Below are positions 22,874 through 35,220 of a DNA stretch of 46,965 bases, piece after piece. The translations under genes were made by a program, and so were the position numbers. Numbering within the stretch: the stretch's first letter is position 1; every line of letters starts with the position of its first letter. Under the pieces are notes generated by a model. That model worked only from the letters and a program-made list of their open reading frames with translations. It searched no databases and was not told where the DNA came from. This DNA is from Prochlorococcus sp. AG-442-N17 (GTDB lineage: Bacteria; Cyanobacteriota; Cyanobacteriia; PCC-6307; Cyanobiaceae), in assembly GCA_003212375.1 (NCBI GenBank), contig QCPY01000009.1, forward strand, positions 1 through 46,965, given 5' to 3'.

Positions 22874-22967
22874 GACTCGGCCTTTCGCGGTTTTAACGCC
22901 CAAACCTGGTCAGGATCGGAAGATAGCAGCCACAAGGGATGCTTGAGGCAGGCGAGATAACCGAGTC
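22874..22967 (+). ncRNA. ffs: Signal recognition particle RNA (4.5S-type)
   Basis: About 94 nt. The terminal stem GACTCGG (22874-22880) pairs with CCGAGTC (22961-22967). The apical domain contains the near-invariant Ffh-binding segment: CTGGTCAGGATCGGAAGATA (22906-22925), followed by GCAGCC, with the GGAA tetraloop. The RNA joins Ffh to target nascent membrane proteins. It is encoded opposite to both neighbours, panB and ftsZ, with 15 bp to the ftsZ stop. Confidence 0.95.
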
Positions 22968-22982
22968 ACTTAATTTTAAAGT

Positions 22983-30796: not shown

Positions 30797-32020
30797 TTAT
30801 TTATTTGCAAATTTAATAAACTCTGCAACTAAGAAGATTGAACCCGTTATCACAGGATTGCATTTCGGCCATCTTTTAAGCTCGAAAAGATAATTAATAG
30901 CATGATCAACTTTCTCAAACTCAGTTATTTTAAAATGTTTAAGTTCATTGATCCTAGAAAGATCATTTAATCGCCAACTTTTTTGATTAGGAACTGGAAC
31001 TAAAAGTATGTGATCATTTTTTTTAAAAAGAACTTTAATCATTGAGATAATGTCTTTTTGGATTTGGACTCCTAAAATCCAATAAATCCCTTCTTGATTA
31101 TTTACCCAAGTTTTCCTTTCCTCCGAAAGGGCTTTTGCCGCTGAGTAGTTATGTGCAGAATCTAAAAGTATTTTTTTATTTAAATAGTTAATTATTTCAA
31201 GCCTCCCGTTCCATTTTGTATTCTTTAGTCCTTTTTTGATAGAGCTCTCTTTAACGTTAAATCCTAAGTTATTTAGTGCTTCAATTGCACCAATCGCAAC
31301 AGCTGCATTTTGTTTTTGAAAATTTCCTTTTAAGCCAATTTCATAATTGCTTGGTAAAGGTTCTTTCCATATGATTTTTGCTCCTACTTCTTCAGCTCTT
31401 TTTTTAATTATGCTTTCAACTTTATTATCTTGACAACAAGTAATAACCACTGCATTTTTTTCAATTACAGCTACTTTCTCTATGGCAATTTTTTCAATTG
31501 AATCGCCAAGGTACTCTTTATGGTCTAAACCTATGTTGCCAATAGCAATTATTGGTCTGAAATTATGAGCTGTAGTTGCGTCTAATCGCCCACCTAATCC
31601 AGCTTCAAGAATTAGTAAATCTACTTTTTGTAAATCAAAAAATTCTAGTGCACAGCAAATAATTTGTTCAAAAGGAGTTAATTTATGGGTTGAAAGATTA
31701 TTTTCTATTTTCTTAAATAGTCTTTCAAATTCTTCCTTATTAATATTTTCTTTATTGACTCTGATTCTTTCACAAATATCCAAAAGGTGAGGCGAAGTAG
31801 TTACCCCAACATTCTTTTTTTCGGAATAAAGAATATTTTCTATGAAAGCTGTAATAGAACCTTTCCCATTTGTTCCAACAATTTGAATCGCGGGAATATT
31901 TTTGCAGGGATTATTTAATTCCTTAAGGGCTTTTTTTATTCTTGATAAACCTAATTGAATATTTTCCCTTTCAAATTTGGGTGAAAGTAAATCAAAATTC
32001 TCAATATTTACTTTGGTCAA
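30797..32020 (-). CDS. folC: Folylpolyglutamate synthase / dihydrofolate synthase
   Basis: This Mur-ligase-fold ATPase adds glutamate to dihydropteroate and to folates. The P-loop GTNGKGS is at residues 49-55. LEAGLGGRLDATTAHNF and LDHKEYLGDSIEKIA are the diagnostic folate-ligase segments, and LLDSAHNYSAAKAL marks the C-terminal domain. At 407 residues it is complete. It lies 12 bp behind argD, with which it is probably co-transcribed, and is convergent with the FAD oxidase gene, 5 bp apart. Confidence 0.93.
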   Translation of the reverse strand: MTKVNIENFDLLSPKFERENIQLGLSRIKKALKELNNPCKNIPAIQIVGTNGKGSITAFIENILYSEKKNVGVTTSPHLLDICERIRVNKENINKEEFERLFKKIENNLSTHKLTPFEQIICCALEFFDLQKVDLLILEAGLGGRLDATTAHNFRPIIAIGNIGLDHKEYLGDSIEKIAIEKVAVIEKNAVVITCCQDNKVESIIKKRAEEVGAKIIWKEPLPSNYEIGLKGNFQKQNAAVAIGAIEALNNLGFNVKESSIKKGLKNTKWNGRLEIINYLNKKILLDSAHNYSAAKALSEERKTWVNNQEGIYWILGVQIQKDIISMIKVLFKKNDHILLVPVPNQKSWRLNDLSRINELKHFKITEFEKVDHAINYLFELKRWPKCNPVITGSIFLVAEFIKFANK

Positions 32021-32032
32021 AACTTCTCAAAT

Positions 32033-33208
32033 TTATAGCTCTTCAAAAATTAACTCTAATTTTTTTAAAAGAATATTGATTTCTTTTCTCGTAATTATTA
32101 GTGGAGGAACAAACCTAACAACATTCCCTCCAGCTGGGACTAGAAGCAAACCTTTCTGAAAAGCTTTCAATGTAATTGTTTTTGCATCAGTATATGCATC
32201 TTCTATAACAAGGCCTTGTATTAATCCTAATCCTCTAATGCCTTTTATAATATTGGGGAATTTAGCTGAAATTTGACTAAATCCCTCATTTAATTGCTCA
32301 CCTCTTTCGTAAACGTTTTTAAGAATTTTACGTCTTGTAATTTCTTCTAATACTGTCAAAGCAGCTCTACAAGCAAATGGGTTGCCACCGAAAGTACTTG
32401 CGTGATCTCCAGGGGAAAAAATGTTCGCTTTTTTTTGTACCAATAAAGCACCAATTGCATGTCCTCCACCTAATCCTTTAGCTAAGGTAAAACCATCAGG
32501 CTCGATTTCTAGATTCTCATATCCCCACATTTTCCCAGTTCTTCCTACACCACTCTGAACTTCATCAAGAATTAAAAGAGAATTATTTTCATTACAAATT
32601 TTTCTTAATTCTTTAAAAAACAACTTATCTCCTGGTATTACTCCGCCTTCTCCTTGAATAGGTTCAATTAAAATCCCTGAAACTTTTTGGTCATTTTTTT
32701 TTAATTCTTTAAATATTCTTTTTACTGAAGCAATATCGTTATATTTAAAAAACTTAAAGCCCTTAACCATTGGCTCAAAACCTTTTTGGTATTTAGGTTG
32801 ACCAGTAGCACTTAAAGTGGCTAGTGTTCTGCCATGAAAGCTAGATTGAGCAGCGAGAATAAAAGACTCTTTCCCTGCATGTGCTGTATTACCATATTTT
32901 TTTAATAATTTAATCGCTGACTCGTTTGCTTCGGCGCCACTGTTGCAGAAAAAAACACTTTCAGCACAACTCTGTTTGGTTAGAAATTTGCTTAATTCTT
33001 CCTGCTCTTCAATTTTATAAAGATTGGAGATGTGCTGAATTTTCTTTAACTGAGCAGATAACTTTCTTCTTAAGATTCTATTGCTATGCCCAAGACTACA
33101 TGTCGCTATACCAGCTACTGCATCAAGATATTTTTTCCCTTTTTCGTCCCATAACCAACAGCCATTACCTTTTTTGAAAGATATATCAAATCTTTCATAA
33201 GTATTCAT
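32033..33208 (-). CDS. argD: Acetylornithine aminotransferase
   Basis: A class III PLP aminotransferase that makes N-acetylornithine in arginine synthesis and may also serve lysine. LLILDEVQSGVGRTGKMWG contains the PLP-ring Asp, and FTLAKGLGGGHAIGAL holds the Schiff-base Lys. The start is placed at ATG 33208 (MNTYERFDISF, 391 residues). The frame is open 27 codons upstream, but that part is tRNA-Leu sequence. Five nucleotides separate the tRNA 3' end from the ATG. No Shine-Dalgarno site is visible. Confidence 0.94.
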   Translation of the reverse strand: MNTYERFDISFKKGNGCWLWDEKGKKYLDAVAGIATCSLGHSNRILRRKLSAQLKKIQHISNLYKIEEQEELSKFLTKQSCAESVFFCNSGAEANESAIKLLKKYGNTAHAGKESFILAAQSSFHGRTLATLSATGQPKYQKGFEPMVKGFKFFKYNDIASVKRIFKELKKNDQKVSGILIEPIQGEGGVIPGDKLFFKELRKICNENNSLLILDEVQSGVGRTGKMWGYENLEIEPDGFTLAKGLGGGHAIGALLVQKKANIFSPGDHASTFGGNPFACRAALTVLEEITRRKILKNVYERGEQLNEGFSQISAKFPNIIKGIRGLGLIQGLVIEDAYTDAKTITLKAFQKGLLLVPAGGNVVRFVPPLIITRKEINILLKKLELIFEEL

Positions 33209-33213
33209 TAAAG

Positions 33214-33295
33214 TGGGAGCGGTCGGACTTGAACCGACATACCCGAAGGTGCCGCATTTTGAGTGCGGTGCGTCTACCAATTCCACCACGCTCCC
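33214..33295 (-). tRNA. tRNA-Leu (anticodon CAA)
   Basis: An 82-nt class II tRNA on the minus strand. The acceptor arm GGGAGCG pairs with CGCTCCC, with an A discriminator and no encoded CCA. The anticodon loop CTCAAAA between CCGCA and TGCGG gives CAA. A long variable arm (CACCTTCGGGTA region) and T loop TTCAAGT are present. argD starts 5 nt downstream. Confidence 0.97.
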
Positions 33296-33609
33296 AAGGC
33301 TTTTCAGCTATAACATTGCATAAAAATCATAGCAAATGATGTAGAATTTGCCATTTTTTTCTATACATCAACCATAATCCATTTATTCACTCCTTCGCCT
33401 GCTTTACGCAGAACAGTTAGGGAAATATAAAATACTTAAAAATTTTTTCAAATCAAACACATTTCATAAATAATTACTCAAAAAAAATATTTTATGCTGT
33501 ACATAATTGAGACATTTATGCCTAATAAATAATCTAAACCGGCTTATTTCAAGAATTAGCTTCACAGATTGTTATATTATGATATATTTAGGTAAGAAAT
33601 TTCTCTAAA
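33296..33609. other. 314-bp spacer upstream of tRNA-Leu
   Basis: A mostly AT-rich stretch between tRNA-Leu (minus) and two tiny plus-strand ORFs. Apart from the candidate tRNA-Leu promoter I see no gene or stable hairpin. A locally GC-richer patch (33391-33415) has no clear meaning. Confidence 0.5.
33307..33335 (-). promoter_or_regulatory. Candidate promoter of tRNA-Leu/argD
   Basis: On the minus strand TTGCTA (33335-33330) and TATAGC (33312-33307) are separated by exactly 17 nt and lie 11 nt ahead of the mature tRNA 5' end. Each matches four of six consensus bases of a sigma-70 promoter. Position and spacing are good, but AT-rich DNA gives many such matches. Confidence 0.35.
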
Positions 33610-33846: not shown

Positions 33847-35220
33847 TCAAGCTGCACTAGCTATAGATACATCCTCTTTATTTAAGTTTGAACTTTCATG
33901 CATAGATTTCTTAGTTTTTTTTATATCTATTTCTCTCGTAACTTGTGCACCCAGCATAGATAGCTTCATTTCAATACTTTCGTAACCTCTATCTAGATGT
34001 TCAAGACCATAAATAAAGCTGATTTCATTGGATATTAAAGCTGCAATTATCAATGCAGCTGAAGATCTTAGATCTGAACCTACTAATTTCATTCCTCTTA
34101 ATTTATTAACTCCAGTTATATATGCCACATTATTTTTTACAGTTATAGAACTACCCATTTCATTTAAAAGTTCTACATGATTCATTCTGTTTTCAAAAAT
34201 CGTTTCAGAGATCTTTGATCTTCCTTTGGCAATAGTCATTAGAGCCATAAATGGGGCTTGTAAGTCGGTAGGGAATCCTGGAAATGGAGCAGTTTTTATA
34301 TCTACAGCCTCAATCTTGTTACCTTTTATTGAAATCGAATTTCCTTTTTTTGTAATTTGACTACCACTTTCTTCTAGCTTATTTAATACTGCTTCTAAGT
34401 GATTTGGGATTACTGGAGAAACTGTAATTGAAGATGAAGTTGCAGCAGCAGCTATTAAAAATGTTCCTGCTTCTATTCTATCTGGAATTACTTTATGCGA
34501 ACAGCCAACAAGTTTTTGAACTCCATCAATAATTATTTTTTTTCTACCAGCATCATAAATTTTTGCCCCCATTTTATTTAGCATATTACATAAATCTTGA
34601 ATTTCAGGTTCTCTCGCTGCATTTTCTATCACTGTTCTCCCTTCAGCTAAGGATGCGGCCATTAATAAAGTTTCTGTAGCTCCAACACTTGGACAATTTA
34701 ATCTGATATTGGCACCATGTAGTCTATTTCTCTTCTCGACTAGTTTTGCTTTTACGATATCCTTTTCTATAATAATTTTGGCACCTAGTGCCTTTAGACC
34801 TCTTATGTGTTCATTAATAGGTCTTTTACCGATATTGCACCCACCAGGCAAAGGTATTGTAGCCTCTCCAAACCTAGCTAATAATCCTCCAATACAAAAG
34901 AAACTTGCCCTTAATCCATTAACAAGTTCAAATGGGAGCTCTTTGTTGGATATGTTCGTTGAATCAATTGTTAATTGATGATCTTTCGTTTGTAACTTAA
35001 CTCCTAAACTTTCTAGAATACTCCCCATTTTCTCAATATCTGTGAGCTGAGGGACATTATCTAATATGATTTTTTCATCAGTAAGTATTGATGCTGCTAG
35101 TAATACTAAAGCTGAATTCTTTGCACCACTAATCTTTACCTTTCCTTTCAGTGTACTTTGGCCAATAATCTTTAAATTGTGAGATTCAAGATATGACTTA
35201 TTGTTGCTTTCGCAAACCAT
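33847..35220 (-). CDS. murA: UDP-N-acetylglucosamine 1-carboxyvinyltransferase
   Basis: MurA transfers enolpyruvate from PEP to UDP-GlcNAc, the first committed step of peptidoglycan synthesis and the target of fosfomycin. KISGAKNSALVLLAA holds the conserved Lys35-Asn36. The reactive Cys128 is present in LPGGCNIGKRPINEH, so the enzyme is of the fosfomycin-sensitive type. Other family segments are PSVGATETLLMA and RIEAGTFLIAAA. At 457 residues it is longer than most, with short extra tails at both ends. It stands alone on its strand. Confidence 0.96.
   Translation of the reverse strand: MVCESNNKSYLESHNLKIIGQSTLKGKVKISGAKNSALVLLAASILTDEKIILDNVPQLTDIEKMGSILESLGVKLQTKDHQLTIDSTNISNKELPFELVNGLRASFFCIGGLLARFGEATIPLPGGCNIGKRPINEHIRGLKALGAKIIIEKDIVKAKLVEKRNRLHGANIRLNCPSVGATETLLMAASLAEGRTVIENAAREPEIQDLCNMLNKMGAKIYDAGRKKIIIDGVQKLVGCSHKVIPDRIEAGTFLIAAAATSSSITVSPVIPNHLEAVLNKLEESGSQITKKGNSISIKGNKIEAVDIKTAPFPGFPTDLQAPFMALMTIAKGRSKISETIFENRMNHVELLNEMGSSITVKNNVAYITGVNKLRGMKLVGSDLRSSAALIIAALISNEISFIYGLEHLDRGYESIEMKLSMLGAQVTREIDIKKTKKSMHESSNLNKEDVSIASAA

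Follow-up and report, generated by a model that had tools for sequence, protein, structure and literature searches.

In Prochlorococcus sp. AG-442-N17, the gene argD probably begins inside a tRNA gene: comparison with related genomes suggests that it overlaps the gene for tRNA-Leu(CAA) in frame, and that maturation of the tRNA and translation of full-length ArgD compete with each other. This reading is supported by the conservation of the frame between genera, the open frame upstream of the conventional start codon and the coding constraint on the codon before it. Which codon starts argD, the race between RNA folding and translation initiation, and any regulation are what we infer beyond these comparisons.

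The window, which is the whole stretch of 46,965 nt that was analysed, carries the junction on its minus strand. An intact tRNA-Leu(CAA) gene (33214..33295; ARAGORN and Rfam RF00005, 55.3 bits) ends with its discriminator A at 33214 and is followed by a gap of 5 nt, CTTTA (33209..33213), and by the argD ATG at 33208-33206. The sequence, ARAGORN and Rfam agree in this with the geometry given in the preliminary description of the DNA, whose statement that no CCA is encoded after the tRNA is true in the window and also for 105/105 sense tRNA genes of other genera. From the conventional ATG, argD comprises 391 aa plus stop (32033..33208; ORF list and TIGR00707), and its product, which then begins with MNTY, is identified as ArgD by TIGR00707 (465.5 bits, cut-off 410.05) and NF002325 (440.1 bits, cut-off 372). 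Upstream of this ATG the frame has no stop in the gap or anywhere in the tRNA and continues as far as a TAG stop four codons before the tRNA (33308..33310; sequence and ORF list), and at its longest, from a GTG at 33289, it encodes 418 aa plus stop (32033..33289; ORF list). In the window a complete tRNA gene is consequently found within an open protein frame, both on the same strand, and no ATG, GTG or TTG occurs there between the TAG and the tRNA. Discriminator and gap together read Thr-Leu before the ATG, and the predicted tryptic peptide spanning the junction of tRNA and spacer, as encoded in the window, is CGTFGYVGSSPTAPTLMNTYER. The neighbours of this arrangement are murA upstream (33847..35220, minus strand; TIGR01072, 528.3 bits) and folC downstream (30797..32020, minus strand; TIGR01499, 283.2 bits). 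Elsewhere in the window, positions 22874-22970 of the plus strand match the bacterial small SRP RNA (RF00169, 56.7 bits).

The tRNA gene and argD appear to be transcribed as one unit, as had been assumed before. For the candidate promoter that the preliminary description placed ahead of the tRNA, a consensus scan did return a promoter-like site on the minus strand (33326..33354), consisting of ATGGCA, 17 nt and TATGAT with a TG before the -10 box (extended -10), but taken alone this site is weak, given that the scan gave 8 sites in the region against 3.9 (sd 1.6) in shuffled sequences. In 30 loci of the genus, inspection by eye shows a box resembling TATAAT about as far ahead of the tRNA.

The family comparison comprised 112 genomes from 32 other genera of the Cyanobiaceae, including G316, G317 and G319; the loci L030 and L145 (contig ends) and the genomes G238 (79 nt upstream) and G207 (no full-length match) were left out of the counts. 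Upstream of argD, tRNA-Leu(CAA) is present in sense orientation in 105 of these genomes and inverted in 6, and in one it was not found within 600 nt. The gaps between tRNA and argD range from 8 to 222 nt in these genera, and in 90 of the 105 sense genomes, with gaps of 8-116 nt, the frame of the tRNA is in frame with argD and open into it. Within genera lacking a conserved ATG in the spacer, 13/13 length steps are multiples of three, compared to 3/6 in those with one (Fisher 0.02, with genus groups that were set after seeing the data, genomes that are not independent, and steps taken between sorted lengths instead of along a tree; g24 was placed among the genera without a conserved spacer ATG, yet 4/8 of its genomes carry one). 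With the reservation that this grouping is post hoc, the frame appears to have been kept over time, as expected of a nested tRNA gene. A variant of tRNA-Leu(CAA) with 83 nt is combined with a gap of 13 nt in 11 genomes, and with this gap the frame counted from the 5' end of the tRNA is back in register. These 11 genomes, of g3 and g19, carry a different tRNA-Leu(CAA) before argD, which gives the impression of a tRNA exchange that preserved the frame.

The loci that depart from this pattern carry possible start codons of their own. In 15 sense genomes the tRNA frame is interrupted or out of step with argD; the spacer supplies an in-frame ATG in 11 of them and only GTG or TTG in the other four. 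Where the tRNA is inverted, the antisense strand of its end contains an in-frame ATG in five of six cases, and in the sixth a GTG stands in the spacer. The one genome with no tRNA nearby offers in-frame ATGs at 13 and 28 codons before the Met. At the other extreme, 21 genomes of other genera have spacers without any ATG, GTG or TTG, and 15 of the 21 lack these codons in the stretch from the upstream stop to the tRNA as well. Since neither spacer nor upstream region offers a start codon in these 15 genomes and in the window, argD has to start there either in the tRNA or at the Met itself.

Within the genus of the window, the best 80 named relatives, kept from 232 found, were compared. The tRNA-Leu(CAA) and a gap of exactly 5 nt were found in 79 of them; the contig of the eightieth starts within argD. 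This confirms the tight junction noted earlier for all 79 readable loci, and together with the tRNA upstream in sense orientation in 105/112 genomes of other genera it rules out a chance proximity of tRNA and argD. Due to the constant gap length the frame cannot be tested within the genus, so that the case made by the genus itself concerns one codon. As the codon directly ahead of the ATG, TTG occurs in 40 loci, TTA in 38 and ATA in one, and the latter 39 of the 79 loci have no ATG, GTG or TTG between the tRNA and the Met. On a tree of the 80 sequences the last base of the gap has changed about 10 times, every time between A and G; at 88 fourfold sites in argD, 210 of 370 changes of a purine lead to a pyrimidine, and a restriction to A and G at the gap base has a probability of about 2e-4 by chance. 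G is also commoner at this base (40/78) than in the TTA and TTG codons across the whole of argD (288/1814). In the CTT of the gap a single base differs in a single locus and all else is invariant, even though synonymous change would be possible at the third position of ACT. In the leader, positions 33296-33305 mostly read AAAG or AGAG before CCTT when the loci of the genus are inspected by eye. Base pairing between this stretch and CTTT in the gap (33210-33213) around the acceptor stem is conceivable and might explain the near-invariance of the gap.

Further signs of coding were found before the ATG in the other genera. The residue preceding the Met is V, L or I in 111 of the 112 genomes and Met in one, and 23 of these codons are unable to start translation. 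A GTG occurs at this position in 77/112 genomes and a TTG in 10/112, both of which are potential starts. A nucleotide rule instead of coding is less likely, since GTC, GTT and ATC all occur there. The residue encoded just ahead of the ATG aligns with Leu in three and Ile in one of the best four solved ArgD sequences, and the match to the TIGR00707 profile begins at the residue before the Met. Going by these comparisons, ATG 33208, which the preliminary description had taken as the ArgD start, is probably not the start of argD: with V, L or I before the ATG and with the alignment to solved proteins, coding was not found to begin at the ATG beside the tRNA, as a leaderless mRNA would have it.

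The spacers of in-frame genomes point in the same direction, with synonymous codon changes making up 54/132 in the argD frame and 27/129 and 12/126 in the shifted frames (a set without the genera g5 and g21 and eight single genomes). The absence of stop codons is a weaker sign of coding than these signatures: in unselected spacers of at least 21 nt, the argD frame is interrupted by a stop in 10 of 54 distinct sequences, the other two frames have 14 and 22 such cases and shuffled sequences 17.1, and all 10 stop-bearing spacers have their own start nearer the Met, ATG in nine and GTG in one. The value of 0/37 spacers with an in-frame stop was obtained from the set without non-open genomes, is a result of that selection and was not counted as support. 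Within the tRNA itself, constraint on coding and constraint on the tRNA are indistinguishable.

Three candidate start codons lie near the 5' end of the tRNA on the minus strand: a GTG at tRNA nt 7-9 (33287..33289), where GTG or ATG is present in 156/167 loci; a GTG at nt 10-12 (33284..33286), with a start-type codon in 96/167 loci; and a TTG at nt 16-18 in the D-loop (33278..33280), present in 167/167 loci. Conservation does not allow a choice among them, since conserved tRNA bases supply these codons anyway. In a rough fold that assumes a transcript start at 33319, the TTG of the D-loop is unpaired with a value of 0.84 in partial transcripts of 55-100 nt and both GTGs are paired, while in the complete transcript, for which the predicted structure lacked the cloverleaf, the TTG is buried (0.07). 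The argD ATG is unpaired in the same fold at 0.92, 0.13, 0.88 and 0.91 for lengths of 120, 140, 160 and 200 nt. Both the paired GTGs and the mostly accessible ATG count against a start in the tRNA.

Two other explanations have to be weighed against a start within the tRNA. In tRNA punctuation, mRNA ends are produced by tRNA processing, and the argD junction resembles such cases in the short distance from tRNA to ATG and in the lack of an encoded CCA. Along this line the preliminary description had RNase Z cut after the discriminator to release an argD mRNA with a leader of 5 nt, which is translated from ATG 33208 and makes ArgD dependent on tRNA maturation. As a whole that reading is partly supported, by the apparent single transcription unit with its candidate promoter and by the conserved tight junction. 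In favour of the released mRNA, the gap of 5 nt is kept in every readable locus among the best 80 relatives, the missing CCA suits it, the near-invariant CTT behaves as if the trailer mattered despite possible synonymous change, and the ATG is mostly unpaired in the rough fold. However, the coding frame of argD extends beyond the ATG into the tRNA, which sets it apart from tRNA punctuation; the preceding codon shows coding constraint, and its residue is present in the solved ArgD proteins and in the profile. The dependence of ArgD on tRNA maturation is not supported by the other genera, which keep the frame across tRNA and spacer with gaps of up to 116 nt and would not be leaderless. We regard this model, in which ArgD needs tRNA maturation, as rather unlikely. 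A term search of the literature for RNase Z and leaderless mRNA returned no paper matching the full combination.

Alternatively, the open frame could be a relic of an ancestral argD start in the spacer, so that lineages with short gaps now start at the Met or at the preceding codon and have merely inherited the frame. A conserved spacer ATG is indeed present in some genera (g5, g21 and part of g19), a spacer ATG occurs in 14 of the 90 open genomes, in one of them formed with the discriminator, and the frequent GTG (77/112) immediately before the Met could serve as such a start. Against this, genera lacking a conserved spacer ATG still show length steps that preserve the frame, and V, L or I is still kept before the Met in the 21 genomes of other genera and the 39 of 79 loci of the genus that contain no ATG, GTG or TTG from the tRNA to the Met. 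This makes a relic quite improbable in our judgement.

For a start of argD within the tRNA, we favour the following sequence of events. Transcription from the promoter before the tRNA would yield a single transcript, and ribosomes would engage a GUG or UUG near the tRNA 5' end on the nascent, not yet folded RNA. Early initiation would give an ArgD whose N-terminal tail derives from tRNA and spacer sequence. If folding came first, RNase P and RNase Z would instead cut the transcript and release tRNA-Leu, and because the start would lie within the tRNA, this cutting would remove the start of the ArgD message. Such a competition would be the reverse of the proposed dependence of ArgD on tRNA maturation. 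The leaderless cut product, or uncut RNA, may still be translated from the ATG as a second, additive route. More tentatively, and with the odds in our view somewhat against it, a kinetic choice made for each transcript could allow the capacity for initiation together with folding and processing of the tRNA to set the ratio of tRNA-Leu(CAA) to ArgD, linking translation to amino-acid supply, and could have been kept in most of the examined genera.

A similarity search of 19 genomes, which a very divergent copy would escape, showed, among the matches checked, no second copy of tRNA-Leu(CAA) that would free the one before argD. Thirteen further matches were checked in 12 genomes (11 single-contig genomes and G000), and 12 of them are tRNA-Leu(TAA) and one is no tRNA; G234 had a single match, and the second matches of six more genomes were left out. 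At the locus L291 (G041:C1:574063-574200), a match of 39 bases to the first part of the tRNA, with no tRNA found by ARAGORN, lies about 1.4 kb from a tRNA-Leu(TAA) and may be the trace of an integrated element.

The gene order suggests how the overlap arose. Of 24 family loci tested, 23 have murA beside argD, with the contig ending in the remaining one, and all 24 have folC there. In outgroup cyanobacteria, represented by the best-scoring 23 of 71 genomes, murA was near argD in none of the 23 loci and folC in two (flanks of 1,500 nt), and no tRNA was found within 700 nt upstream of argD. In these 23 loci the frame reaches 87 nt or more beyond the corresponding Met in the upstream direction, and in two of them another residue replaces this Met. 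These data fit an origin by rearrangement: it is likely that at the base of the family argD was cut from its own start and joined in frame behind murA and tRNA-Leu. T7-like cyanophages are reported to integrate into a host tRNA-Leu gene (PMC8776855). Cyanophage SS120-1 (NC_020872.1) carries, at L303 2501-2540 and 115 nt after its integrase gene, an exact copy of 40 bases of the tRNA-Leu(CAA) before argD (nt 1-40), which by its sequence looks like an attP site. Insertion of a phage at tRNA-Leu(CAA) would place phage DNA before the tRNA and the proposed argD start.

In print we found one bacterial nested tRNA gene, selC (tRNA-Sec) within selB of Alphaproteobacteria and others, as described in Mukai 2021 (PMC8124441). 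The selB-selC arrangement resembles the argD case in that a tRNA lies in a protein frame of the same strand with lengths that keep the frame, the overlap is conserved but has been lost or inverted in some relatives, and protein and tRNA are proposed to be alternatives. In selB-selC, however, the tRNA lies at the 3' end and gives a C-terminal extension, whereas in the argD case an elongator tRNA-Leu lies at the 5' end and the extension would be N-terminal. Unlike in the selB-selC system, the start codon provided by the tRNA would belong to a metabolic enzyme that is unrelated to this tRNA. Judged from sequence, with translation of the tRNA-encoded residues presumed, the argD case would be a variant and not a member of the selB type, which has the extension at the C-terminus. 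The same paper cites a tRNA-Lys inside cox1 of Armadillidium vulgare mitochondria, which is likewise nested in direct orientation, but in an organelle, while argD concerns a bacterial chromosome and the N-terminal end. Among the literature matches listed, with preprints and most subscription papers outside the coverage, there was no report of argD starting in a tRNA.

If argD does begin within tRNA-Leu(CAA), the junction would clearly exemplify, in bacteria, a single stretch of RNA with two mutually exclusive uses. The argD genes annotated from the ATG of MNTY would then be too short in these genomes, and across much of the family of Prochlorococcus the start codon of a metabolic enzyme would be held by a tRNA gene.
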